Shown here: one piece after another, positions 16,087-35,162 of the stretch
Position numbering within the stretch: position 1 is the first letter of the stretch
Layout: each line of letters begins with the position of its first letter
Source: a virus
Length of the DNA stretch: 42,517 nucleotides
Strand: one strand, 5' to 3'
IMG/VR virus record: IMGVR_UViG_3300024289_000005
Span: 1-42,517 of that record
The notes under the pieces: model-generated
Databases searched by the model: none
Told to the model about the DNA's origin: nothing
The model's input: only the letters and a program-made list of their open reading frames with translations
Program-made: the position numbers and the translations under genes

Positions 16087-17337
16087 TTAGTAGAGGCGAT
16101 AGTTGGTTTGGCCCATGCTGCCCGCTTTGGCGAGGTTGAATTGTTGTAGGCATAAATACCCAAAGGCGTCGAAGGCGTGGTCGACGCCCAGGTTTTTGTT
16201 GGGAAGGCCAGTGCCTGGGGCGTAGGTGAGGGTGCGGAGGGACTTGATTAGTTCCTTGCAGCGGGGGTGGATGTAGGTGCGGCGGGTTCCAGTCGCATCG
16301 AGAAGGGCGGTGTTGACGGCGGTGATCTTGTCGCGGATTTTCCAGGGGGCTTTGGGACTGGAGACGTTGAAGCCGCTTCGGCGGAGGATGTTGTGGTCCG
16401 TTAGGCCCACGCCGCTGGTTTTGCGGGCGCCACCAGTGGGGTCCGGGCAGGCGATCACGCGGCGATCCACGCCGAAACGGCGGGTGACTTCCTCGGCGAA
16501 GTCCCAGGTGGTGGCGCCGCCAGTGAGGATAATTTCGTCGAAAACATAGAGTGTTTCATTATCTTTTACAGCGCAAATTCCTGACATCGGGCTAACATTA
16601 AAGTCGACGCCAAGCAGTAGCGGTAGGACAGAAATATCTGATGCTTCGGTTGAAATGTTTTCGTCGCCGAATGATATTGCAACGAGGCCGCTGAGGTTTT
16701 CGAAGCTGGCCTCGAATTCTTGGCGAAAGGTGCGGGCGTCGAGTTGGCCTCTCGCGGCTTCGATTTCTTCTGGTGGGACGTTGTCGCCCTCAATCGTCGT
16801 GAATTGCCAGCGGCTCCAGTTCTCGTCGCCGCTATCCGCGTATTGCCAGAGTTCGTAGAACCAGCTGGCCGTGCCGTCCGGGGTGGAGATGAATAATGCC
16901 CAGCCTTGTTTGTCCGCAAGGGCTGGGCGGATCACCTCGAACCAGACTTCGCTGGACATGAACGCGGCTTCGTCCAGCACCACGCCAGCCAGACTGCGGC
17001 CTCGGAGGGCCATTGCGTTTTCAGTGCCCTTCAGTTCGATTGTTGAGCCGTTTACGAGTTCGATCTTCAAATCCGTCTCATTTTTGGCCTTAATCCATGC
17101 TTTAGGGACTAACTTTTTCAACAATTTCCACACAATATCCTTACTCATGCGATATGTCGGGGCACAATAAAAGAATGTTTCTCCGGGGCGTTCGATTGCT
17201 CCACGGAGTAGTTCGACGCAGGAAAGATAGCTTTTGCCGAAGCGGCGGCCTGCGACGAGGACGCGGAAGCGTTTGCGGCTCGAAAAAACTTGGCCCTGGG
17301 CGTAACGGAGACTGACCGCTCCAGCGGATTCGGGCAT
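16087..17337 (-). CDS. terL: Terminase large subunit
   Basis: A 416-residue DNA-packaging motor. The N-terminal ATPase has Walker A GRRFGKS (residues 30-36) and Walker B VVLDEA (D122, E123). A coupling motif ISTPDG follows near residue 150. The C-terminal RNase H-like nuclease has GVDFNVSPMSG with the first metal-binding Asp near 242, CPDPTGGARKTSG, and a final GVDHAFDAFGY. Its length is usual for siphophage terminases. The start ATG at 17337 lies 23 bases after a TACACT box. Unusually, it is separated from the small subunit by 428 bp. Confidence 0.95.
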   Translation of the reverse strand: MPESAGAVSLRYAQGQVFSSRKRFRVLVAGRRFGKSYLSCVELLRGAIERPGETFFYCAPTYRMSKDIVWKLLKKLVPKAWIKAKNETDLKIELVNGSTIELKGTENAMALRGRSLAGVVLDEAAFMSSEVWFEVIRPALADKQGWALFISTPDGTASWFYELWQYADSGDENWSRWQFTTIEGDNVPPEEIEAARGQLDARTFRQEFEASFENLSGLVAISFGDENISTEASDISVLPLLLGVDFNVSPMSGICAVKDNETLYVFDEIILTGGATTWDFAEEVTRRFGVDRRVIACPDPTGGARKTSGVGLTDHNILRRSGFNVSSPKAPWKIRDKITAVNTALLDATGTRRTYIHPRCKELIKSLRTLTYAPGTGLPNKNLGVDHAFDAFGYLCLQQFNLAKAGSMGQTNYRLY

Positions 17338-18902: not shown

Positions 18903-19757
18903 TTAGGCAAGCGCGGGAGCCAGAGCACCGCTGGAACCGTCCGGCCAGGGGTAGGACTCCCGGCGCCATTCCTGATCAGCCGGCAGCAGTGCCAAGCCAG
19001 TGAGCGCCACTAGGTCTGAGCGGTCGATTCCGCGTGCAACCTTCTCAAGCTTGAGATACGCGCCGCTGCTGAGATCCTCCACTACCCAACCTTCACCGCT
19101 CCACTCCACGCACACCTGAAACAGTTCCTGCAGTTCCCGCTCCAGCTTGTCTTCAGGCAGTGAGTCCAGCTGGTCATCAGCCCAGAACTTAGCGGTGCTC
19201 GGGCCGTACGCGTTACGCTCCAGCACGTCGGTTGGGCAGTATGCGGCCAGCTGATCTCGCACGAGATCGCGCCAGTCTGACGCGTAGGAGTCTTGCCAAG
19301 CCCGTTCAATCTCCTCCAGCTCCAGCGTGGAGTGTTCGTCTTCAGAGATGAGCGGATAGGACTCCAGCGCTGCTACGGTTTCGATCACGTCAGCCGGGAC
19401 TCGCAGCAGATCCAGCACAACACCGGACCCGTTCCAGCCATAACCAACGGTAAGAATGCCGTCGTGGGGGTCGGGTGTGCTGGCGGAATCGGTGAGCACG
19501 TTGTAATTAGCCTTACCCACTAGGCCGGTGCTGGCATAATCGCTCCAGCCGCAGTAGGTCGGCACGAAACCGAGTGACACGTCGCGCCAGCGCTCAGCTA
19601 GGCAGGTTTCGAGATGGCGCTCCGGGCTTTGGTGCCAAGAGCCGAAACCGTCGCGCTCCGGTTCGCCGTCTCGAATCAGCAGCCAGTGCCCGGAGCATCC
19701 GGCGAGACGGTCAATACGCTCCAGCAGTGCGGGGCTGGCTTTGGGTGTGGTTGCCAT
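18903..19757 (-). CDS. Hypothetical protein, 284 residues
   Basis: A medium-sized acidic protein with no recognised domain (MATTPKASPALLERIDRLAG, GHWLLIRDGEPERDGFGSWH, LVGKANYNVLTD, RAWQDSYASDWRDLVRDQL, CVEWSGEGWVVEDLSSGAYL). It is Trp/Glu/Asp rich, with no signal peptide or membrane helix. Its DNA carries five copies of GCTCCAG on the plus strand, part of the 19.1-20.5 kb cluster. It is transcribed away from the divergent 19903 gene. An early accessory role is possible. Confidence 0.72.
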   Translation of the reverse strand: MATTPKASPALLERIDRLAGCSGHWLLIRDGEPERDGFGSWHQSPERHLETCLAERWRDVSLGFVPTYCGWSDYASTGLVGKANYNVLTDSASTPDPHDGILTVGYGWNGSGVVLDLLRVPADVIETVAALESYPLISEDEHSTLELEEIERAWQDSYASDWRDLVRDQLAAYCPTDVLERNAYGPSTAKFWADDQLDSLPEDKLERELQELFQVCVEWSGEGWVVEDLSSGAYLKLEKVARGIDRSDLVALTGLALLPADQEWRRESYPWPDGSSGALAPALA

Positions 19758-19866
19758 GGTGGGATCGTCTCCCTAGGTGATCAGCCCCAAGCATGGCAGC
19801 AGCCCCAGCCGTATCTGCCCTTACTGTTACAGTTCTTCAATCGGTCGGCGCCGCTTGCCCTTGGTG

Positions 19867-19897
19867 GTAGTGTTAGAGGGTATCCCCAACCCATAGG
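19867..19897 (+). promoter_or_regulatory. Bipartite element GTAGTGT-N11-CCCAACCCATAGG, plus copy
   Basis: It ends 5 bases before ATG 19903. Twenty of twenty defined positions match the copy at 18858-18888, while the 11-base spacer differs. CCCATAGGG here is a near-palindrome next to the start codon. Confidence 0.5.
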
Positions 19898-19902
19898 GAA
19901 CC

Positions 19903-20130
19903 ATGCAAAACCACTACATACGCGTCACCTTTCAAGACGTGCCCATAGGGGCAGAGTTCTGGTGGGGTGGTTTCACGCCAGAGCGCTCCAACTGGGGCCG
20001 TAAGCGCTCCAGCCGCACTGCTGACTATCGGCCGTTGATTCTTGGCAAGCTATCCGACTACAGCCGCTGGGGATTCTGGCGGCAAGATGAAGTCGTTTTT
20101 ATTGCAAACGGCGACAGGAGAGAGCCGTGA
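19903..20130 (+). CDS. Hypothetical protein, first gene of a two-gene plus-strand operon
   Basis: A 75-residue protein (MQNHYIRVTFQDVPIGAEFW, WGGFTPERSNWGRKRSSRTA) with an aromatic-rich N-terminus reminiscent of short beta-barrel modules seen in cyanobacterial and phage small proteins. The bipartite motif GTAGTGT-N11-CCCAACCCATAGG ends 5 bases before the ATG. It is followed by 20127 in a GTGA overlap. Function unknown. Confidence 0.7.
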   Translation: MQNHYIRVTFQDVPIGAEFWWGGFTPERSNWGRKRSSRTADYRPLILGKLSDYSRWGFWRQDEVVFIANGDRREP

Positions 20131-20522
20131 GCGGCGGCGAATGGACCACCAAGGGACGCCAGCGCGAAGCCCGCGAAGCCGAGCGCGAAGCGCTCCGGCT
20201 GAGCAAGCGCCACCTACGCGACCTGCGCTGGGCAGTGGAACGCTCCAGCATTGAAGCCTCAGACTGGGCAGACCTACTAGCGCTCCAGCAGGCCCACGGC
20301 AAGGAGGGGCCGCTCCAGCTGTGGCGGGAGCTTGTGCCCTACTGGCGAGACTGCCAGCGCGTTAATGGTGGCGCCGACATCCCAGCGGATAGTTTTCCAC
20401 AAGTTCCGGGACTTTTAACGCGCAGCGCTCCAGCGGCACGGATTAAGGCATCGCCGGGGGCAGCCCGTAAGGTTCGCTCCAATAAAGGCAAAGCCCAGCC
20501 CAGCCGGAAGCGCTCCAGTTGA
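20127..20522 (+). CDS. Basic hypothetical protein
   Basis: A 131-residue protein starting with GTG. A helical, strongly charged N-terminus (GRQREAREAEREALRLSKRH) leads into a central domain (VERSSIEASDWADLLALQQA) and a lysine/arginine/serine-rich tail likely to contact nucleic acid. Its gene contains six copies of CGCTCCAG within 280 bases. It ends 8 bases before a rho-independent terminator. Function unknown. Confidence 0.7.
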   Translation: MSGGEWTTKGRQREAREAEREALRLSKRHLRDLRWAVERSSIEASDWADLLALQQAHGKEGPLQLWRELVPYWRDCQRVNGGADIPADSFPQVPGLLTRSAPAARIKASPGAARKVRSNKGKAQPSRKRSS

Positions 20523-20530
20523 TACGCTCC

Positions 20531-20557
20531 AGCTCTGGCCACAAGGTCGGGGCTTTT
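20531..20557 (+). terminator. Rho-independent terminator after 20522 gene
   Basis: Plus strand AGCTCTGGCC-ACAA-GGTCGGGGCT, ten pairs including three G-T, then TTTTC. It ends the two-gene plus operon, which converges on the exonuclease gene. Confidence 0.7.
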
Positions 20558-20635
20558 CTACTGCCCTTGCAAGTGAGACTCACGAGACACGCCACGAGAC
20601 AGCCGTAGGCGGAGATACCGACCACGCCCCAGCAG

Positions 20636-20674
20636 ACCTCCCACTATGGGAGGTATTGGCAGGATTCCCAATAC
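20636..20674. repeat. Two adjoining inverted repeats
   Basis: ACCTCCCA-CTA-TGGGAGGT type stem at 20636-20654 (8-bp arms) followed directly by GTATTGG...CCAATAC at 20653-20674 (7-bp arms). They lie at the edge of the ATGAATGG repeat cluster, between convergent genes. Confidence 0.6.
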
Positions 20675-20950
20675 ATGAATGGCAATTATGAATGGCGTTC
20701 CAGGCTATGAATGGGTTTTCGTCGAGGCCGTTAGGCCGAGACATGAATGGCCGTTTGTAGGTTCTCAAAGTATGAATGGCAGCGTTCCATGAATGACTTT
20801 TCTGCCTGTTCCAGTTCTGCTGCATCCATGTAGTGGACGTTGGGGGTGCCGCATCGACGTGCCAGCACAATCACGGCGCCGGATGCTTTTAGGCCGGTTA
20901 AATGTTTGAGTCCCAGTGAATAGGCTCCACACTGGTCAATGTATGAATGG
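20675..20950. repeat. ATGAATGG repeat cluster
   Basis: Exact ATGAATGG at 20675, 20688, 20707, 20743, 20772 and 20943, with near copies at 20789 (ATGAATGA) and 21079 (GTGAATGG). It covers the gap after the terminator at 20531 and the last part of the exonuclease gene. Irregular spacing (13, 19, 36, 29 bases) resembles iteron-type binding sites rather than a tandem array. Confidence 0.6.
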
Positions 20951-21567
20951 CCGCTGGGAAGCCTGTCGTCGCGGTCGGTTTTACGTCCCACGCTAGTCTT
21001 CCAGTCGACAACATGGATGCCTTGTTTTCCTTTTACGGTGAGTAAGGCGTCTGCTGTTCCAGCAAAACCTGCCGGGTGGTGAATGGAAAATTCGGACGCA
21101 AAAATCTCCGTGACGTTTTCGGCGATCCAGTCAGATAGTGAACGAGCGTAACCTTTTGCACTGAATCCTACGGGGGGAACATTGGGGCGTACCCTTTTGA
21201 GTGCCCATTGTGTGATGGGAGCAGGAATACGCGCCAGGCCTTGTTCGTCCCAGCGAATAGAGTTTCTTTTGTTTGCTGTAGAACGTGCTAATTGCATTGA
21301 AGTTTTTAATAAATACTCTGCTTGATTGTGTGTCATGTTGCCTCTATTTGCTGCAACATTTCGCTGGCAGGTAGCTTCAGCTTCCCCGAGGCGGGCAGCC
21401 CAGCGTTCCAGTCCGGTGGTGTCGCTTGTCTCTTTTAGTATTCTAGTTACACTGTGATACACGTTACCGTTAATGTCCCGGTAGATCCTGCCGCCGGGGT
21501 CGGATTCGTCATCACGTTCCAGCTTCCAACGCCTTAATCCAGCAAGTGTGTCTTGTGTATTAGGCAT
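20731..21567 (-). CDS. RecB/Cas4-family (PD-(D/E)XK) exonuclease
   Basis: A 278-residue nuclease starting at ATG 21567 (MPNTQDTLAGLRRWKLERDD); a GTG at 21612 would add 15 residues but would start before the TAGAAT box. The core has FSIHHPAGFAGTADALLTV (first acidic residues), HVVDWKTS (D-x-K centre) and, after a loop, YIDQCGAYSLGL, the Q-x-x-x-Y motif of RecB-like nucleases. Such phage enzymes process DNA ends in recombination or in degrading host DNA. It lies two genes downstream of the ssDNA-binding protein, suggesting joint work in recombination-dependent replication. The last codons overlap the ATGAATGG repeat cluster. Confidence 0.85.
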   Translation of the reverse strand: MPNTQDTLAGLRRWKLERDDESDPGGRIYRDINGNVYHSVTRILKETSDTTGLERWAARLGEAEATCQRNVAANRGNMTHNQAEYLLKTSMQLARSTANKRNSIRWDEQGLARIPAPITQWALKRVRPNVPPVGFSAKGYARSLSDWIAENVTEIFASEFSIHHPAGFAGTADALLTVKGKQGIHVVDWKTSVGRKTDRDDRLPSGHSYIDQCGAYSLGLKHLTGLKASGAVIVLARRCGTPNVHYMDAAELEQAEKSFMERCHSYFENLQTAIHVSA

Positions 21568-21590
21568 TGAAGGTACTATTTCCCTTCTGG

Positions 21591-21596
21591 ATTCTA
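21591..21596 (-). promoter_or_regulatory. TAGAAT -10-like box before exonuclease gene
   Basis: TAGAAT, 24 bases before ATG 21567; supports 21567 over the GTG at 21612 as the true start. Confidence 0.42.
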
Positions 21597-21605
21597 GTAC
21601 AGGTG

Positions 21606-22160
21606 TCAACACTTGAAAATTTTGCTGGTGGCCTTTGCGTGAAAACGCTTGATTGCACCAGGGGATGCCTGTGGTAAGCCTTTTTCAGGCGTGTGTTCCC
21701 CGTGCAGCAGGGCCGCTGCGGCTAAGTAAGCCTCCCGAGCCTCTTGCTCTGTTGCGTAGTGCCCCAGGTAGTACTGCACGCCATCAATCCCGATTAAAGC
21801 CCTGTAGGTGCCGCTTGGGGTCCTCGTGTAGCCCTTTACGTTGCTGCGGTTGCAGTGATTGCCGGAACGGGTGGTCGAACGCAGGTTCCAGGGGCTGTTG
21901 TTGGCTCTGTTGCGGTCTATGTGGTCTATCTCCAGGGGCTCCGTACCTGTGACCCACTTCCAGACAAGACGATGGGCTGAAAATTTGTCGTGGCGAATTT
22001 CGCCGACTATGTAACCCTTTGTGAATCGGCAACCAAACGGTTTACCTATGCGGTAGGGATTCTTGTGGGTGCGCCAGTAAAGCGTCCCAGTAAATGGATC
22101 TAGTGAAAACAGCTCCCACAGCTCTTCCGCAGCCGGTAGGGGCTTGTAAGCTTTCGCCAT
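21606..22160 (-). CDS. HNH endonuclease with AP2-type DNA-binding domain
   Basis: A 184-residue protein. The N-terminal part ends in the HNH core: FSAHRLVWKWVTGTEPLEID, HIDRNRANNSPWNLR, GNHCNRSN. It is followed by an AP2-like domain (RTPSGTYRALIGIDGVQYYL, GHYATEQEAREAYLAAA). This architecture is typical of free-standing homing endonucleases that spread between phages. It is inserted between the ssDNA-binding protein and exonuclease genes, which look like a natural pair. The catalytic His and Asn residues appear intact. Confidence 0.88.
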   Translation of the reverse strand: MAKAYKPLPAAEELWELFSLDPFTGTLYWRTHKNPYRIGKPFGCRFTKGYIVGEIRHDKFSAHRLVWKWVTGTEPLEIDHIDRNRANNSPWNLRSTTRSGNHCNRSNVKGYTRTPSGTYRALIGIDGVQYYLGHYATEQEAREAYLAAAALLHGEHTPEKGLPQASPGAIKRFHAKATSKIFKC

Positions 22161-22226
22161 CGCCTATTCCTGGTAGGTGGTCGGGGGCAGGGTGTTGGAA
22201 GCACCGCTGCCCCACCATTTTACCTA

Positions 22227-22808
22227 TCAGGCAGGCTTAAAGGGGTTTGTTCCCTCCAGGAGCCTCGAAATATCGAAGCCGTCAGACTTCGCTTCCAGCC
22301 ATGCTGCGTCAATAAATTCTTGAGATCCTTTCTTTCTAGGTACCGGACGAACTGAATACTCAGTCGTTAAACCTGAGCCTTTTTTTGATACGGAAAAATC
22401 CCAATCAAGCAAGTTGCTATAGTCATCAAGCTGACTAATCGCATCAATTTCTTTCAAAATTGATTTTTGGGTAATCTGTAGTACTTGAACTTTTCCAGCG
22501 TCATATACGTACACGGGGATTGCTATAGCAAACTTCACATCTGCTGTTCCAGGGCCACCGCGTCCTTCGCGGGGCTCGAACTCGCCCATTTCGGCAACCA
22601 CGTCCTCATAAGTGGGCTCGTATGAAAACCGGAAAGGTTTGTTGACCCCGTTTGCTTGCCCCCAGCACTCGTGAAATTCCAGAGGTTCGTCAGTGAGTAG
22701 GGCGAAGCGGACGGAACCACCATCGGGGAGTTTGCTGAGGCTCAGGTAACCGCCGCCGCTGTTGCCGCCGTTGACGTTTGCAGATGCGGATTTTGAAAGG
22801 AAAGCCAT
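22227..22808 (-). CDS. Probable single-stranded DNA-binding protein
   Basis: A 193-residue protein starting at ATG 22808 (MAFLSKSASANVNGGNSGGG); the open frame upstream crosses a terminator hairpin and is not expected to be translated. The central domain (YLSLSKLPDGGSVRFALLTD, KFAIAIPVYVYDAGKVQVLQ, ITQKSILKEIDAI, DWDFSVSKKGSGLTTEYSVR) looks like an OB-fold of gp2.5/gp32-like phage SSBs, where the KKGSGL-x-T-x-Y-x-V segment follows a DWDF strand. It is divergent from the primase-helicase gene. SSB is a pattern-based call; a recombination mediator is an alternative. Confidence 0.65.
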   Translation of the reverse strand: MAFLSKSASANVNGGNSGGGYLSLSKLPDGGSVRFALLTDEPLEFHECWGQANGVNKPFRFSYEPTYEDVVAEMGEFEPREGRGGPGTADVKFAIAIPVYVYDAGKVQVLQITQKSILKEIDAISQLDDYSNLLDWDFSVSKKGSGLTTEYSVRPVPRKKGSQEFIDAAWLEAKSDGFDISRLLEGTNPFKPA

Positions 22809-22886
22809 TTGTGTAGGTGTTTGGTGTGGTCGGCTGAGTGCCAACGAGTAACACACTAACACGCCTTGACACCGATGGCTAGGCTG

Positions 22887-22921
22887 AAAAAACGCCCCAC
22901 AGCGGAAAAGCTGCAGGGCGT
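22887..22921 (-). terminator. Terminator-like hairpin in the leader between SSB and helicase genes
   Basis: Minus strand ACGCCCTGCAGC-TTTTCC-GCTGTGGGGCGT, 12 pairs with two G-T, followed by TTTTTT. It sits 79 bases upstream of the SSB start in the divergent gap, with no minus-strand gene above it. It is therefore an attenuator of the SSB transcript or a barrier to antisense transcription. Confidence 0.65.
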
Positions 22922-22949
22922 GTGGAACATTCTCATGTGAGACTCTAAC

Positions 22950-25367
22950 ATGTCGCAAGGTAAGACGCAGGATCTGCTGGCTTTTGTGCGCCAGTTGCCT
23001 GTGGGGATGGCGTATGCACCGATCTACGCCAAAGGCGAGAAACTGCCCTCAGGGTCGGTAAGCAAGGGCAAGACGCCCACAAAGCGCAGTCATGACGAGG
23101 TGATGAGCCCGGCTGACGTCGCTCTGCAGATTGAGCGCCAGCCGAAGGTGTTCCAAGCGGTGGGCGTCTTTACGGGCGGTCGCAGCATGGGACTCGTGAT
23201 TCTTGATGTGGATCGGAATCTCAGTCGTCTCAAAAAGAAATGGGGCGAGTCGCTGGAGGGTGCTCCAGTCGTTACCTCGACCAAGGCGAACGCGGCGAAG
23301 TACCTGTTCCGCATCCCTGAGGCTCTGTGGGGCTCGGTGCAGGGTTTTGGGCTGTCCGATACCGGTGCTGGTTACGAGGTGCTCTGGGGCCGTCAGGGCG
23401 TCATCTACGGGGCTTATCCGGGCTCCAGTGATGGGAAGGCGCCGGAGGGCTCGTATGGCTTTGAAGGGGACTTGGAGGCGATTCCAGAGGCTCCTGCGTG
23501 GCTGATCGCTGAGATGAAGGAGCGGGCTGGCAAAGGTGTTGAGGATGCCGGCTTCATCAGGAACCGCAAGGCGCTTGATTTCTCGGATCGAGATCCAGCT
23601 GAGGTGGCTGAGATCATTCAGTCGGCACTGAAGGTCATTCCGGGGCAGGGGGCTGGTAGCCGGGACCACTGGGTCAAGGTGGGGATGGCGATCCACTCGG
23701 AGTTGCCGACTGACCTAGGGCTAACGCTGTGGTCTGCGTGGTCTGCGGAAGATCCGGAGTTTTCACAGGAATGGGAGGAGGGCAATCCCTGCGAAGCCGC
23801 TTGGAGGAGCTTCAGGAAGGGGCCTGTAAGCCTCGGGACGCTCTTCTGGATGGCGGACCAGCAGATGCCTGGGCGGCTGTGGCTTGCGGAGGATCTGCGG
23901 AAAGTGGTGATGCAGCTGGAGGCGGACGTTGCGCCAGAGCATCTGCCTCGCTTTTCCGAGATCATGCTGGCCACTAGGGAGGCGCTCCAGCTTGAAAATC
24001 CGGCTGAGCAGAAATACGAGCTGCACAAGATCGCGTACAAGGCAAAGATGCGCGACGCCTTTGAGCTGGAGAAGATGTATGTCGATCAAGTCCAATATGA
24101 GTCTCAGTCTGAGACGATGACTGTGAAGGAGCTGCTCCAGCAGGACTTTGAGCGCAGCTACCTGATTCCTGATCTCCTTCCCAATCCCGCAGTCGTCCTG
24201 ATCTACGGCGCTGGTGGTGATGGCAAGTCCATGGCGGCTTGGACTCTTGCGAAGCACATTGCGACAGGGGCGCCCTTTGTGATTCGCGGCCAGCACGTTC
24301 CAGTGCAGCAGGGGCCGGTGCTCCTACTCAACGGCGATCAGCCGCTGGTGCAAATGCAGGAGCAGCTACTGGAGATCGAGATGCCTGCGGATGCTCCGGT
24401 GACGTTGCGGACGGATTGGACGCTCCAGTCCTATGCACGCTTCCAAAAACTCATGGAGCGGGTGCGGCCAAAGCTGGTGGTAATCGACTCGCTGATCGGC
24501 TGCTCTGGCGGTCGGGCGTTCGACGAGAACAAGTCCGACTTTGCTACTCCGCTGTATTGGCTCACCCGCAATAACGGGGTGCTGTTCCCGGCCACAACGA
24601 TCCTGATCATTCACCACGCCAACAAGACCGGCGGCTTTAGGGGCACCAGTGCTATCCGGGACGCTGTGGATGAGACCTGGAGCCTGCGGCGACCCAGCGA
24701 TAAGCAGCTGGAGCAGACCGGAGCTAATGCCCGGATCATCACCGTTGAAAAATCCCGCTCCGGTCGTGGTGGCACCAGTCTGCTGTTGCGTCAGGAAGCC
24801 GACCTGAGCTTCACGCTGGCAGATTGGACCCCAGAGGTCGACCCGACCGAAACAACCCCTTCAGGGGTCATAGACCGCGTGCTCCAGAGGCTTCGTGTCG
24901 TTTACCCGGCAGGTAAGACCCGCGATGAACTGAACTCTGATCCGATCTGCGGGGGCAGCGTCGCCGGAATCAGGAAGGCACTCCAGCGCTTGGAAAAGCG
25001 TGGGCTGATCCACGTGATGGAGGAGCGCAAAGCAGATGGAAAGCGCGGTAGTGCCAGCAAGGTCTACCAAGCTGTTCTCTCTCCCTCGCGGGGAGAGGTA
25101 GGAAATACCTGTCCCACTAAGGAAAAACCCTGTGATACCAACGAATCTAAAGTGGGACAACAGCCCGAAATTCAGGAAGTTGTCCCACTTAAATCGAATG
25201 TGGGACAAACCGAGCCTGAAACGGAGGGGTGTCCCACTTTGAAACCCTGTGATACCAAGGGATCTGATCAATGGGACACCTCTGGGACATATCCCCACGC
25301 GCGTGAGGAAAGGTCGGAGGCTGAGCTGGAGCAGCTGATGCAGGAAGCCGCACGGATGTGGGACTGA
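22950..25367 (+). CDS. Primase-polymerase / replicative helicase fusion
   Basis: An 805-residue replication protein. Residues ~15-200 form a prim-pol (AEP) type domain with VILDVDRN near residue 82 as the metal-binding DxD and a GYEVLWGRQGVIYGAYPGS strand pair. Residues ~225-315 resemble the PriCT-2 linker (VKVGMAIHSE, LWSAWSAEDPEF, CEAAWRSF). Residues ~400-640 are a RepA/AAA_25-type ATPase: Walker A GAGGDGKS (~419-426), Walker B LVVIDSL (~509), IIHHANKTGGFRGTSAIRDA (~552). A winged-helix-like region follows (RKALQRLEKRGLIHVMEE). The last ~100 residues are low complexity with repeated KPCDT, and their DNA holds three 9-bp inverted repeats. It would open the origin, unwind DNA and prime synthesis for the polymerase at 33336. 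Confidence 0.9.
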   Translation: MSQGKTQDLLAFVRQLPVGMAYAPIYAKGEKLPSGSVSKGKTPTKRSHDEVMSPADVALQIERQPKVFQAVGVFTGGRSMGLVILDVDRNLSRLKKKWGESLEGAPVVTSTKANAAKYLFRIPEALWGSVQGFGLSDTGAGYEVLWGRQGVIYGAYPGSSDGKAPEGSYGFEGDLEAIPEAPAWLIAEMKERAGKGVEDAGFIRNRKALDFSDRDPAEVAEIIQSALKVIPGQGAGSRDHWVKVGMAIHSELPTDLGLTLWSAWSAEDPEFSQEWEEGNPCEAAWRSFRKGPVSLGTLFWMADQQMPGRLWLAEDLRKVVMQLEADVAPEHLPRFSEIMLATREALQLENPAEQKYELHKIAYKAKMRDAFELEKMYVDQVQYESQSETMTVKELLQQDFERSYLIPDLLPNPAVVLIYGAGGDGKSMAAWTLAKHIATGAPFVIRGQHVPVQQGPVLLLNGDQPLVQMQEQLLEIEMPADAPVTLRTDWTLQSYARFQKLMERVRPKLVVIDSLIGCSGGRAFDENKSDFATPLYWLTRNNGVLFPATTILIIHHANKTGGFRGTSAIRDAVDETWSLRRPSDKQLEQTGANARIITVEKSRSGRGGTSLLLRQEADLSFTLADWTPEVDPTETTPSGVIDRVLQRLRVVYPAGKTRDELNSDPICGGSVAGIRKALQRLEKRGLIHVMEERKADGKRGSASKVYQAVLSPSRGEVGNTCPTKEKPCDTNESKVGQQPEIQEVVPLKSNVGQTEPETEGCPTLKPCDTKGSDQWDTSGTYPHAREERSEAELEQLMQEAARMWD
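25110..25289. repeat. TGTCCCA/TGGGACA inverted-repeat array in helicase gene
   Basis: Three perfect 9-bp inverted repeats share the core TGTCCCA/TGGGACA: 25110-25118 with 25151-25159, 25180-25188 with 25200-25208, and 25228-25236 with 25272-25280. A seventh core lies at 25283-25289. A 17-base direct repeat AAACCCTGTGATACCAA occurs at 25125 and 25242 inside the first and third pairs. Candidate origin. Confidence 0.65.
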
Positions 25368-25866: not shown

Positions 25867-26232
25867 ATGACACAGCATCCAATCACCCCACCGCCCGAGC
25901 TTGCTGCCAGGTGGGTCAACGAGATCTACGGCGATGACGGTTTTGGCTTCGATGTTCCCCTTCACCCCATCACGCTTCGGCTGGTAGAACGCGCCGCACA
26001 ATGGGGCGCCGACCAGGAACTGGAGGCGTGTTGTGAGTGGCTTCACTGGCAAAACCTGGCCACACATCCCGAACTGATCCCTTCGCTCCGCGCCGCCCGC
26101 CGCCCCAAGGCACCGAGCTTGAAGGAGCAGGCGTTGGAGCTGATCGACGGCTGCACCGACCCTGAAAGCGACTACCTAGACGACAACGCGTTATCAATCA
26201 TCCGCCGCGCACTGGAGCAACTCGATGACTGA
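25867..26232 (+). CDS. Small protein, family A, copy 1 (HPITPP...RRALEQLDD)
   Basis: A 121-residue protein that is the best-preserved member of a family repeated in this operon (others at 26921, 27199, 27812, 28503). Shared blocks are an N-terminal HPITPPPELAARWVNEIYG, a middle ERAAQWGADQELEACCEWL, then IPSLRAARRPKAPSLKEQAL and a C-terminal IIRRALEQLDD. It is helical with two conserved adjacent cysteines and no known fold. I associate this family with uncultured cyanophage genomes. It is the first gene of the overlapping operon 25867-29445. Confidence 0.8.
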   Translation: MTQHPITPPPELAARWVNEIYGDDGFGFDVPLHPITLRLVERAAQWGADQELEACCEWLHWQNLATHPELIPSLRAARRPKAPSLKEQALELIDGCTDPESDYLDDNALSIIRRALEQLDD

Positions 26233-26749
26233 TTACACAGCAACGCCCAAGCAATGGGCCGAAATAGAGCATTGGTCTGATGAATACGGCTACGCTCCTC
26301 AAACCTGCATCCTTGAACTCCGCGCCAGGGTCAAGACGCTAGAAGATGCGGCTCACAAGCACATTGTCGAAACGAATTCAAACATTGTGGCTTTATTTAG
26401 CCGGGTTGAATCGTTAGAGGCTGCTGAACGCCAAGCATCAAAAGTCCACCAGATCAGCAAACCTCTGAAACTTACTGCAAAGCAGCAGGCAGAGTTAAAA
26501 GCATTACTGACGCCCGATTTTAGGGTTGGCATGACGCCAACTTCTACTTCAAACCAAGTTGGTAATTCGCTGGTGGATCAGGTAGCCCGCGCTATCGGTC
26601 GAGACGATGAACCCATCAACTGGGAGGAAGAAGCCCGCGCTGCGATCCGCACGGTGGCGGCGTGGTTGATTGACCGGAAGCGCGACGACGACTGGCTCGC
26701 ACCTTTTGAGGAGCTTGCTGATCTGTTGCTAGAGGAGGTGCAGCAATGA
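26225..26749 (+). CDS. Coiled-coil hypothetical protein
   Basis: A 174-residue protein beginning MTDYTATPKQWAEIEHWSDE, with a predicted coiled coil (ELRARVKTLEDAAHKHIVET), a Lys/Gln-rich linker and a C-terminal helical domain (LVDQVARAIGRDDEPINWEE, ARAAIRTVAAWLIDRKRDDD). The N-terminal TATPxQW segment is a recurrent module in cyanobacterial-virus small proteins. It overlaps family A copy 1 by 8 bases (ATGACTGA). Function unknown. Confidence 0.78.
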   Translation: MTDYTATPKQWAEIEHWSDEYGYAPQTCILELRARVKTLEDAAHKHIVETNSNIVALFSRVESLEAAERQASKVHQISKPLKLTAKQQAELKALLTPDFRVGMTPTSTSNQVGNSLVDQVARAIGRDDEPINWEEEARAAIRTVAAWLIDRKRDDDWLAPFEELADLLLEEVQQ

Positions 26750-26928
26750 GCGACTTCCACCCAGCACCCTTTCAAGACTTCTCCACCGAGCTACGCGATC
26801 CCTGGCCCGTTGTGGAGCGGCTGCGCATGGCACTGCGCGAAGCCGAGCGCTACTGCCTCGGCGCTGAGAACATCACCGGCCAGTGCATCTCATCCCTTCT
26901 TGAAGTTCTACCTGACGACGATGACTGA
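26746..26928 (+). CDS. Small hypothetical protein
   Basis: A 60-residue acidic protein (MSDFHPAPFQDFSTELRDPW ... LEVLPDDDD). A copy of its final ~40 bases (CATCCCTTCTTGA...GATGACTGA) reappears inside the fused gene at 27307-27353, where it joins two other families. ATGA-type overlap with the upstream gene, 8-base overlap with the next. Confidence 0.65.
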   Translation: MSDFHPAPFQDFSTELRDPWPVVERLRMALREAERYCLGAENITGQCISSLLEVLPDDDD

Positions 26929-27202
26929 TCAACGCCTAATCTCTCCACCCGCCAAAATCATCCGCCAATGGGAAGCCGAATGGGACACCAACGGTGCCGC
27001 CCATTGCAACAAAGCCCTCTACATCGCTGCTAAGGCTGCAACCTGGGGCGCGAAGTCTGCCATCGAGTGCGCCCTGAAGGACACTGCCTCATGTCATTGG
27101 CGTGTTGCCGATGGCCCTGAAGATGGAGTGCAGCTTGTGCGTGCCAGTGATCTGGTGGCTTGGGCTGCTGCCATCGGCAAGCGCTATGAGGTCGAAGAAT
27201 GA
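26921..27202 (+). CDS. Small protein, divergent family A member
   Basis: A 93-residue protein from ATG 26921 (MTDQRLISPPAKIIRQWEAE). It matches the family A plan: ISPPxxxxxQW at the start, then YIAAKAATWGAKSAIECAL where copy 1 has RAAQWGADQELEACC. Its C-terminal third (HWRVADGPEDGVQLVRASDL) differs from the other members. Starts 8 bases before the upstream stop. Function unknown. Confidence 0.72.
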   Translation: MTDQRLISPPAKIIRQWEAEWDTNGAAHCNKALYIAAKAATWGAKSAIECALKDTASCHWRVADGPEDGVQLVRASDLVAWAAAIGKRYEVEE

Positions 27203-27585
27203 CCAGTCAACACCCCATCACCCCACCGTCGGAGCCGGTGCGGCAGTGGCTGGAAGAGCTATACGGCGGTCCAGTTTCTGTGATTAGCTCGTTTGATCAA
27301 CGCGTCCTTGCATCACATCCCTTCTTGAGATTCTGCCCAGCGAAGATGACTGACCTATCACCCGCCGCGCAGGCGGTGCTGGATGCCGTTGAAGACGACT
27401 GCATACACCCCACAGACTTGCACCATATTGCCGCCGCCGCCCTGCGAGCTGCTGCAGATCAGGTGGTGCCGGAAAATCAATTTGGGCCGCCAGAGAACGC
27501 TGCCGCGGTGCAGCGCGAGATCACGCGACGAAGCATCCTCGCCATCGCCGACGAACTAAAAACCTTTACCACCGAAAACCGATGA
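27199..27585 (+). CDS. Hybrid gene: truncated family A fused in frame to family B
   Basis: A 128-residue frame. Residues 1-25 (MTSQHPITPPSEPVRQWLEE, LYGGP) are the start of family A. About 24 residues of joint sequence follow, and from residue 50 (ATG 27346) it is a complete family B protein (MTDLSPAAQAVLDAVEDDCI ... ILAIADEL). The joint DNA copies the end of the 26746 gene. Family B may also be translated alone from the internal ATG 27346, whose context matches the separate copy at 28846. This looks like a recombination product rather than a designed fusion. Confidence 0.7.
   Translation: MTSQHPITPPSEPVRQWLEELYGGPVSVISSFDQRVLASHPFLRFCPAKMTDLSPAAQAVLDAVEDDCIHPTDLHHIAAAALRAAADQVVPENQFGPPENAAAVQREITRRSILAIADELKTFTTENR
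27345..27455 (+). repeat. Family B DNA repeat, copy 1
   Basis: Bases 27345-27417 are identical to 28845-28917 and similarity continues to 27455 with few changes; the offset is 1,500 bases. Confidence 0.9.
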
Positions 27586-27824
27586 CTGACCCACACGATG
27601 CCGTGCATGAGGCGTTGCATGGAGCGTATAGCGCTATCTGCGCTGCCCATACGGCACTGCGCCGCATGGATGGTGCGCTTGAAACGTCCCTTGAGGAGGA
27701 CGATTCGTACCGCTATGAGGACTTGACTGGCGACATCTACAGCATTCGCCATGCGCTGCAGTTGTTTGAAGCTGTGATCACTGCAAACGGACTCAAAGGA
27801 GATGGAATCAAATGGAGAATCTGA
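27582..27824 (+). CDS. Small helical hypothetical protein
   Basis: An 80-residue, mostly helical acidic protein (MTDPHDAVHEALHGAYSAIC, AAHTALRRMDGALETSLEED) with His/Ala-rich N-terminus. It is coupled by ATGA to the hybrid gene and overlaps the next start by 13 bases. Not a member of family A or B. Function unknown. Confidence 0.7.
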   Translation: MTDPHDAVHEALHGAYSAICAAHTALRRMDGALETSLEEDDSYRYEDLTGDIYSIRHALQLFEAVITANGLKGDGIKWRI

Positions 27825-28153
27825 TCCCACCGTCAGAGCTGGTGCAGCAATGGGCCGACGAGTTTTACGGCGGCCCCGGTTTCTCCAAAGTCAGCTCGGA
27901 CGATCTCTATCTCGCCACCCGCGCTGCACAATGGGGCGCAGACCAGGAGCTGGAGGCGTGCTGCAACTACTTCACTCGTGATCTTCGGGAAAGTCTTGCG
28001 GCTGATCTCCGCGCCGCCCGCCGCCCCAAACCGCCGAGCTTGAAGGAGCAGGCGCTTGAGATGCTTGAGAACGCTTGGGAAGGTGGGCACATCAACAACA
28101 ACGCCGCCCAAACCATCCGCCGCGCACTGGAGCAGCTGGATGACAATGTCTGA
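27812..28153 (+). CDS. Small protein, family A, copy (intact)
   Basis: A 113-residue member of family A: LIPPSELVQQWADEFYGGPG, then LATRAAQWGADQELEACCNY, LRAARRPKPPSLKEQALEML, and TIRRALEQLDDNV. Its end differs from the other copies by two extra residues (NV) that carry the start of the next gene. Nearly identical blocks at the DNA level (CATCCGCCGCGCACTGGAGC) are shared with 26225 upstream and 28853 downstream ends, showing recent duplication or gene conversion. Confidence 0.8.
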   Translation: MENLIPPSELVQQWADEFYGGPGFSKVSSDDLYLATRAAQWGADQELEACCNYFTRDLRESLAADLRAARRPKPPSLKEQALEMLENAWEGGHINNNAAQTIRRALEQLDDNV

Positions 28154-28349
28154 ACTTTCACCCGCCGCTCGCGCCATCGTGGAAGCGTTCGAGGAGCGCT
28201 ACGAGCGACTTGGCCCGCTGGAAGGCAACTGGCAGGAGGTTTGCTTAGCTGCTGCGCTCACCGCCTTGGCGGTGCGCATCAAGGGCGCCGACGACATCCG
28301 CCAGGACGTGCTTGACATTGTTAACGAATTGGAGCAATTCAATGGCTGA
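28146..28349 (+). CDS. Small protein, family B, divergent copy
   Basis: A 67-residue protein from ATG 28146 (MSELSPAARAIVEAFEERYE); ATG 28140 two codons earlier is an alternative, but 28146 keeps the 8-base overlap used elsewhere in this operon. The N-terminal LSPAA(R/Q)A(I/V) and the AAALTALAVRI/VLDIVNELE pattern match family B. Function unknown. Confidence 0.7.
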   Translation: MSELSPAARAIVEAFEERYERLGPLEGNWQEVCLAAALTALAVRIKGADDIRQDVLDIVNELEQFNG

Positions 28350-28506
28350 ACCGACTGAGTGGAAGATCACACGCCTTCCTTCTCGTGGCCCAAAGCCTGG
28401 GCAGTCTCAGGAATCATTTTTGCGCGGCAAGGCGCAGGGTGATAAAAAATGGGACAAGCAGCGAGAGGCTAATTTCAACAAACTGCTTAACCGCAAAAAG
28501 CCATGA
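28342..28506 (+). CDS. Small basic hypothetical protein
   Basis: A 54-residue protein from ATG 28342 (MAEPTEWKITRLPSRGPKPG) ending in a lysine/arginine/asparagine-rich helix (KWDKQREANFNKLLNRKKP). Eight-base overlap with the previous gene (ATGGCTGA), ATGA overlap with the next. The basic charge contrasts with the acidic neighbours. Confidence 0.65.
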   Translation: MAEPTEWKITRLPSRGPKPGQSQESFLRGKAQGDKKWDKQREANFNKLLNRKKP

Positions 28507-28853
28507 CACAACAGCATCCGATCGCTCCATCGCCGGAGCTGGTGCAGCAGTGGACCGACGAGATCTACGGTGGTCCCGGTGCAGTCGTTGGTAGTGACGA
28601 CATTTGCTTAGCCAAACTGGCTGCTCAGTACGGCGCAGACCAGGAGCTGGAGGCGTGCTGTGAGTGGCTGCACTGGCAAAATCTAGCGACACACCCGGAG
28701 CTAATCCCATCACTCCGCGCCGCTCGCCGCTCCAAGCCACAAACACTCAACAGTATTGCTCTGCAGATGCTGAGCACCATCGAAGAGATGGGCGTTGTAA
28801 TTCCAGAGATCACCGACACCATCCGCCGCGCACTGGAGCAGCTTGATGACTGA
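28503..28853 (+). CDS. Small protein, family A, copy (intact)
   Basis: A 116-residue family A member: QHPIAPSPELVQQWTDEIYG, LAKLAAQYGADQELEACCEW, LHWQNLATHPELIPSLRAAR, and TIRRALEQLDD. The LHWQNLATHPELIPSLRAAR block is identical to that of copy 1 (25867) while the part after it differs, so the family is mosaic. Confidence 0.8.
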   Translation: MTQQHPIAPSPELVQQWTDEIYGGPGAVVGSDDICLAKLAAQYGADQELEACCEWLHWQNLATHPELIPSLRAARRSKPQTLNSIALQMLSTIEEMGVVIPEITDTIRRALEQLDD

Positions 28854-33335: not shown

Positions 33336-35162
33336 ATGACAATCCTCCAAGGCATCGAGCACCTCTCCACGCTCGATGACGCAAGTTTCGTCGCGTTTGA
33401 CGTTGAGACCACCGGGCTTCAGCCGAAGTTCGGTGGCCTTCGTCTTTTGCAGTTGGCCACTTTTGGGAAGGATCCCGTGGTTCTTGACTGCTGGAGCTTC
33501 AGCGATGAGGACTGGATCACGCTCGAAGAGTTTTGCACTGTTCCAAGGCAGTGGCTGGCGCACAATGCTGTGTTTGATCTCGGGTGGTTGCAGGAACACG
33601 AGATTTACCCCGAGGGCAAGATTTACTGCTCGATGCTGGCCAGTCGGATCCTGACGAACGGGTTGCCGAATTTGAAGCATGGGCTCCAGCACGTCGTTCA
33701 CCGTTACCTAGGCCAAGACATTTCCAAGGAAGAGCAGAAGAGCGATTGGTCGGCTGATTTGCGCGTAGAGCAGATCGAATATGCAGCTAAGGATGTGGTG
33801 GTGTTGACCCAGCTGTGGGAGCCGATCACCAAGCGGATGGCAATTGGTGCGTTGATGCCAGCGTGGGAGCTTGAGTGTAAAGCGCTTCCCGCAATGGCGC
33901 AGCTGTGGCGCACAGGTCTGCCGTTCGACAAGAAAATGCTGGAGCAGCTGATTGAAGATCTAGACATTGAAAACGTGGAAGTCGGTGAGAAATTTATTGA
34001 GGACTTTGATGCGGCGCTTCCGCCAGAACACAAGCTCCACCGTGGGTTAGATGGGAAGTTGTTGTACCAGACAAAGCCGGGGCCGAAAGGTAAGAAGCCA
34101 GATCCGAACGTATTCAACCTCAACAGTCCGGCGCAGTTGCTAAAAAAGTTCACCGCTTTGCTAGGTGAGCCGCCTATGGATATGAAGAACAACAAGCCCA
34201 GCGCTAGTCGTTCTGCGCTCCAGGAATATGTGGGTGATCACAAAGTTGTGGCGGATTATTTGCGGTGGAAGAAAGTAGAGAAGCGTCGGCAGATGGCGGA
34301 GACTTTGTTAAAGAATTACTCGTTTGATGGGTTTATTCGTGCCAGTTATTTGCAGCTTGGGGCTGACACTGGGCGTATGTCATGTATTTCGCCAAACCTC
34401 CAGCAGATTCCGCGTGATCCACGGTTTCGCTTGGCGGTTCAGGCTCCAGCTGGTTGGAAACTGGTTGTTGCGGATTATGGTCAGATGGAGTTGCGGCTGG
34501 CGGCGGCGGAAGCACAGGATCCTTTAATGACCGAGGTGTTTCAGCGTGGGGAAGATCTCCATACGATGACGGCGGTGCAGATTTATGGGGTGGAGCCGGA
34601 TGAAGTTACAAAGGAGCAGCGTCAGATCGCAAAGTCCGCAAACTTCGGATTGCTGTATGGAAGTGGGGCAAAAGGACTCAGAAACTATGCGGCGGCGACC
34701 GGAATCCAGATGGATATTGATGAGGCTGCGGAAGTGCGGCAAAAGTTCCACGCTGCATATAAAGGCATCTCCGCATGGCAGCGCAAAAATGCTGCAGCTG
34801 CTGATGCGGCTAAGGACAATCCATCTATCCGCATACGCATCTCGGGCTTGCGGCGGTTTCTACCGGGCGAGCACAACAAACTCACCACGCGCTGTAACAC
34901 ACCAATCCAAGGAGCTGGTGCAGCAGTCCTCAAACTTACGCTCGGCAAGCTGTGGCCGCTCCTTAAATCAGACCGGGAGGACGTGGTGCGTTTGGCCGGC
35001 GTGGTGCATGACGAAATCATCCTGCTCGTCAGAGAAGAACACGCAGATACCTGGGCGCTCCAGCTGCAAACAGTGATGGAGGAAGCTGAGGCTCGTTGGT
35101 TGGGTGACATTCCGCCGCTTGCTGAAGCTAAGGTCGGAGATAGCTGGCAAGAGGCCAAGTGA
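33336..35162 (+). CDS. polA: Family A DNA polymerase with 3'-5' exonuclease
   Basis: A 608-residue replicative polymerase. The exonuclease domain (1-180) has FDVETTGL (D22, E24), LAHNAVFDLGWL and a final YAAKDVVVLTQLW. The polymerase domain has motif A ADYGQMELRLAAAEAQD (Asp ~380), motif B RQIAKSANFGLLYGSGAKG (~428-446) and motif C VVHDEIILLV (~556-565). There is no 5' nuclease domain, as in T7-type phage enzymes. The residue before the G of motif B (equivalent to E. coli 762) is Phe, which in viral surveys goes with lytic life styles. A TAGAGT box and a short hairpin (33313-33330) precede the ATG. Confidence 0.95.
   Translation: MTILQGIEHLSTLDDASFVAFDVETTGLQPKFGGLRLLQLATFGKDPVVLDCWSFSDEDWITLEEFCTVPRQWLAHNAVFDLGWLQEHEIYPEGKIYCSMLASRILTNGLPNLKHGLQHVVHRYLGQDISKEEQKSDWSADLRVEQIEYAAKDVVVLTQLWEPITKRMAIGALMPAWELECKALPAMAQLWRTGLPFDKKMLEQLIEDLDIENVEVGEKFIEDFDAALPPEHKLHRGLDGKLLYQTKPGPKGKKPDPNVFNLNSPAQLLKKFTALLGEPPMDMKNNKPSASRSALQEYVGDHKVVADYLRWKKVEKRRQMAETLLKNYSFDGFIRASYLQLGADTGRMSCISPNLQQIPRDPRFRLAVQAPAGWKLVVADYGQMELRLAAAEAQDPLMTEVFQRGEDLHTMTAVQIYGVEPDEVTKEQRQIAKSANFGLLYGSGAKGLRNYAAATGIQMDIDEAAEVRQKFHAAYKGISAWQRKNAAAADAAKDNPSIRIRISGLRRFLPGEHNKLTTRCNTPIQGAGAAVLKLTLGKLWPLLKSDREDVVRLAGVVHDEIILLVREEHADTWALQLQTVMEEAEARWLGDIPPLAEAKVGDSWQEAK

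Follow-up and report, generated by a model that had tools for sequence, protein, structure and literature searches.

A strand-biased, degenerate octamer with a fixed map position in a phage family, and its possible role as a Chi-like site

What kind of signal is repeated through a small viral genome almost entirely on one strand, regardless of the direction of the genes in which it lies, and crowds into a single interval of the map? The question is raised by a 42,517-base viral contig (IMG/VR), hereafter the window, in which a preliminary description had counted by hand about 42 copies of GCTCCAG on the plus strand and about 14 on the minus strand. The exact count is 42 and 15, respectively, in close agreement, and CGCTCCAG is found 23 times on the plus strand and twice on the minus strand. 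Chance had been put at two or three copies of each, which is an underestimate, as a third-order Markov model gives 12.6 for GCTCCAG and 3.2 for CGCTCCAG. The conclusion of an excess nevertheless stands (z 8.3 and 11, respectively; CGCTCCAG ranks first among the 8-mers of the window), so that the Markov count, which might have removed either the excess or the strand bias, retains both.

The true motif is degenerate, CGYKCCAG, and CGCTCCAG is one form of it; the consensus was derived from base frequencies around CCAG in the dense cluster of sites, and C or T often comes directly after it. CGYKCCAG occurs 44 times on the plus strand of the window (489 to 37031) and three times on the minus strand (6269, 29823 and 32773). 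The dense cluster at 19138–20533 holds 14 plus-strand sites and none on the minus strand, and these fall in every reading frame and within genes of either direction. Twelve of them are the GCTCCAG copies described earlier as lying within 1.4 kb, which are indeed found at that place, all on the plus strand, with their starts within 19139–20526 (about 1.4 kb). Three of the 15 minus-strand copies of GCTCCAG (26212, 28127 and 28833) sit in the shared end of three paralogues of phrog_32006, four small ORFs of which are found at 25867–28853.

The oriented motif is a trait of a whole phage family and has a fixed place on its map. Among 80 related viral loci gathered with the primase, GCTCCAG, GTTCCAG, GCGCCAG, GTGCCAG and GATCCAG show the same strand bias, and 19 of 19 further whole contigs tested are biased as well (for example 36:1, the highest, 32:1 and 27:1). 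Fifteen near-complete contigs share one common map and start at different points of it, which fits circular or circularly permuted genomes. When these 15 genomes are anchored on the primase, CGYTCCAG counts 356:42 over the whole map, with 122:2 falling in the 4 kb upstream of the primase, that is, in the terminase-primase interval, and a reversed control word counts 48:48. Motif density peaks at this same position in the 15 mapped genomes; in the window, the interval of top density spans 18903–22958 and contains 19 plus-strand CGYKCCAG and no minus-strand copy.

That CGYKCCAG is an oriented DNA-level motif is well established, and selection at the DNA level, on one strand, operates across the phage family. 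Codon usage and gene-direction effects are ruled out by shuffling synonymous codons within genes and counting motif copies per strand, and the earlier argument that a bias holding in genes of both directions is not codon usage therefore survives. Across the family, plus-strand genes contain 69 plus-strand copies against 9.0 expected, and minus-strand genes 154 against 55.4; when the comparison is confined to the window, the figures are 7 against 0.9 and 19 against 5.8. The z-scores of these tests are 20 and 18 for the family, where they are inflated and the figures are not independent because the genomes share ancestry, and about 6.5 and 6.9 for the window alone. No minus-strand excess is seen with the same shuffle in the family (19 observed against 14.4 expected; 4 against 4.9) or in the window alone. 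Since the excess is limited to the plus strand and minus-strand counts equal expectation, the bias reflects enrichment and not avoidance. Motif sites occupy all reading frames, and in pairwise alignments at 75–80% nucleotide identity 60% of them persist, compared with 22% of all 8-mers and 29% of permuted motifs; site conservation is about 2.5 times the background.

The strand carrying the motif is also the G-rich strand round the circular map, which holds for the main genes in either direction and across the 15 genomes. The plus-strand GC skew at four-fold sites is 0.37 in minus genes and 0.15–0.22 in plus genes to the right of the primase; deviating skew bins belong to plus-strand ORFs called in the minus-gene region, which are probably spurious. 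Because the four-fold skew is positive right round the map, the motif follows one replication polarity, as in unidirectional or rolling-circle replication, the direction of which we infer from the skew. The density peak adjoins six [A/T]TGAATGG iteron-like direct repeats (20675–20950), all on the plus strand. In the main array of the window the ATGAATGG repeats are 13–36 bp apart, and 52 of the 53 plus-strand copies of ATGAATGG in the 15 family genomes are located within 4 kb upstream of the primase; these repeats are likely candidates for a replication origin or a pac element. The genes concerned are those for the terminase large subunit (TerL; 16087–17337, minus strand; 43% identity to TerL of cyanophage S-2L), a PD-(D/E)XK exonuclease of the RecB/Cas4/MGME1-like superfamily (20731–21612, minus strand), a putative single-strand DNA-binding protein (SSB; 22227–22958, minus strand), a primase-helicase (PriCT_2 and AAA_25; 22950–25367, plus strand) and a family A DNA polymerase with a 3′-5′ exonuclease domain (33336–35162, plus strand). 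The exonuclease and the primase-helicase are phage-encoded candidate readers of the motif. HNH/endonuclease VII-type genes stand at 21606, 30916, 31326, 38229 and 38533, all in one small genome.

The hosts of these phages are probably small freshwater and estuarine cyanobacteria; the endolysin shares 59% identity with its counterpart in S-CBS1, a phage of Synechococcus CB0201, and this match together with that of TerL to S-2L makes a picocyanobacterial host likely. S-2L is a diaminopurine phage, and homologues of PurZ, DatZ and MazZ were not seen among those ORFs of the window that were scanned. As host proxies, the first 400 kb each of RCC307 and Cyanobium ATX 6A2 and smaller samples of four genomes (G133, G109, G003 and G102) were analyzed through Markov ranks, NNNCCAG spectra and codon-shuffle tests. 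The observed-to-expected ratio of the motif is 0.77 and 1.05 in RCC307, about 1.3 in Cyanobium ATX 6A2 and 1.2–1.6 in G133; for these three together with G109 it lies at 0.8–1.6. It ranges from about 0.5 to 1.6 across the six and reaches 1.9 when three short-contig genomes are pooled as one small sample. Neither strand polarity nor heterogeneity of the motif was found in the proxies where tested (400-kb and smaller samples). The suggestion of a host-type oligomer like HIP1 thus finds no support, there being at most a weak, unpolarised excess in RCC307, Cyanobium ATX 6A2 and the smaller picocyanobacterial samples, and comparison with candidate host genomes, which had been proposed as a way to the host, reveals no matching over-representation of the octamer in the sampled picocyanobacteria. 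In 201 Cyanobiaceae genomes the forward and reverse motif counts are balanced, which is uninformative on leading-strand skew because whole-genome totals balance and are blind to it, and the ratio of motif to control tends to climb with genome size. Motif excess is also missing in seven isolated picocyanophages, S-2L, S-CBS1, S-CBS4, S-CBP1, S-EIV1, S-CRES1 and S-SRP02, of which S-CBS4, S-EIV1 and S-CRES1 were sampled in part. The E. coli Chi, GCTGGTGG, occurs at 1.3–1.9 times its codon-shuffle expectation in the picocyanobacterial samples, with no clear strand polarity there, and is mildly enriched in phages as well as hosts.

Among the oriented motifs known from bacteria, the leading-strand polarity of KOPS/AIMS is not found in the 400-kb host samples, so that a KOPS is unlikely; of the Chi/KOPS-like motif proposed in the preliminary description, the Chi-like half is retained as the best fit, with a candidate reader. 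The best explanation, which we hold tentatively and with somewhat less than even confidence, would be a Chi-like site that is oriented with replication, protects DNA ends against a nuclease of the RecBCD type and favours recombination. In this view CGYKCCAG, as read on the G-rich strand, would be a degenerate, oriented cis-acting site with the complement RCTGGMRCG. A RecBCD-type helicase-nuclease, most likely that of the host, would load on the terminase side where replicating phage DNA has a free end, which may be a sigma tail or an end that packaging leaves behind, and, running toward the primase, would encounter RCTGGMRCG from the 3′ side, in the way that RecBCD approaches Chi. On recognition, degradation would halt and the recombination by which concatemers are made or repaired for packaging would be promoted. 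The weakest step, which we infer, is that the reader is the host enzyme and not a phage nuclease.

Several features of Chi are found here. In lambdoid phages, Chi is a short over-represented word that gathers in the stretch from the replication genes to the terminase (Bobay, Touchon and Rocha, 2013; PMC3784561), and CGYTCCAG is concentrated in the same way in the 4 kb upstream of the primase; however, the word of lambdoid phages is the known Chi of the host and is enriched in the host, whereas the present one is a new word with a strong polarity in the phage, and in the sampled hosts it does not behave like a Chi. The motif has a single orientation relative to replication, at 44:3 in the window and tracking GC skew in the 15 genomes. 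Its complement, GCTGGAGC/GCTGGCGC, matches the proteobacterial Chi candidates GCTGGAGG/GCTGGCGG (PMC8022716) at 7 of 8 bases, sharing GCTGG[A/C]G with them. Like the Chi of E. coli, H. influenzae and other Proteobacteria it is oriented, but its last bases differ and are degenerate, and its polarity relative to the G-rich strand is opposite. As to the enzyme, E. coli-type RecC (PF04257) is encoded in 10 of 10 picocyanobacterial genomes tested, the identity of the host itself being deduced from phage proteins, and recBCD has been reported in marine picocyanobacteria (PMC5101192).

Other observations count against a Chi-like site. The host proxies, as partial genomes, lack the over-representation and leading-strand polarity that are usual but not universal for Chi. 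As the validated Chi of H. influenzae was also missed by genome-statistics detection (PMC8022716), this missing signature weakens the Chi-like reading but does not refute it. The seven other picocyanophages have no motif excess, and genes for an exonuclease and a putative SSB are carried by the phages of the family themselves. The Chi of E. coli is on the leading strand, whereas here the Chi-resembling complement, RCTGGMRCG, sits on the C-rich strand; in addition, several residues of E. coli RecC that we take to be Chi contacts differ in the aligned Cyanobium protein.

The reader may instead be encoded by the phage, in line with the sites for a phage protein that the preliminary description also considered. 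One account, unlikely though of some weight, is that the sites serve the phage replisome, for example in lagging-strand priming or in primosome assembly for the primase-helicase. One orientation would be needed because replication is unidirectional or rolling-circle, the motif strand is G-rich round the whole map as expected of the lagging-strand template, and the cluster is next to the iteron-like repeats and the primase gene. However, loci with a primase only 45–48% identical to that of the window keep both motif and bias, the motif spectrum is uncorrelated with primase identity (rho 0.10), and known primase sites are 3–5 nt long and evenly spread, whereas the present ones are 8 nt long and clustered. 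Next in probability, and likewise unlikely, is a Chi-like system independent of host RecBCD, in which the phage RecB/Cas4-like exonuclease, together with the putative SSB, pauses or switches mode at the motif. Such a system would explain the absence of the motif from host genomes and other phages, and the terminase-exonuclease motif density drops as the exonuclease diverges from that of the window, from about 3 per kb at ≥70% identity to 2.0 at 60–70% and 1.1 at 56% (a single locus). The motif spectrum is also weakly correlated with the identity of the exonuclease, SSB and polA, and not with that of the primase or terminase; but the first three change in concert, perhaps along with the host, overlap and kinship among the loci keep the correlations from being independent tests, and mapping of the reader by co-variation with phage genes is only suggestive. 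To our knowledge, single-domain nucleases of the RecB/Cas4-like family do not read octamers.

It is quite improbable that the sites guide or pace DNA packaging through terminase recognition or translocation. The cluster is found immediately past the terminase gene, TerL varies least among the proteins checked (81–94%) with the motif constant alongside, and headful packaging would fit the permuted starts of contigs that share one map; S-2L, however, lacks the motif despite its 43% identical TerL, and we know of no terminase that uses genome-wide dispersed sites. Stoperators of Cluster A mycobacteriophages are dispersed, asymmetric and numerous sites within one phage genome as well (PMC9283540, PMC6550527). 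They are repressor sites tied to transcription. Such a function is highly improbable for the present motif, the orientation of which ignores transcription direction, with the same strand used in genes of both directions; many sites are inside genes, and the ORFs scanned include no recognisable repressor or integrase gene. The strong strand bias might also suggest type III restriction evasion via one-orientation sites, as T7 evades the type III enzyme EcoP15I, or a host-type oligomer or codon usage, which together are the least probable of the accounts weighed here: the sites are enriched on the plus strand and not depleted in one orientation, the excess is missing in the host samples, and synonymous shuffling removes the codon-usage explanation. 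The cyanobacterial HIP1 (PMC4390886) resembles the motif as an over-represented octamer in cyanobacteria-related DNA, but it is a palindrome of host genomes, whereas the motif is not palindromic, favours one strand and is confined to the phage family.

Whichever protein reads it, the motif marks this phage family and its likely origin region. Taken broadly, we give slightly better than an even chance to an oriented word with a dedicated regulatory role. It would be either the first Chi-type sequence of a cyanobacterial RecBCD, visible only via phages, or part of a Chi-like system of the phage itself, with a phage-encoded nuclease or replisome protein sensing the polarity of the phage genome. 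If the motif is a Chi, phage genomes reveal a signal of the host enzyme that is hidden from host statistics, and picocyanobacteria of ecological importance become open to a RecBCD assay straight away; with a phage-encoded reader, phages would have a novel means of marking the polarity of their DNA. A further word, GTAGGTG, is likewise strand-biased in the window (19:3), with a weaker and variable bias in relatives.
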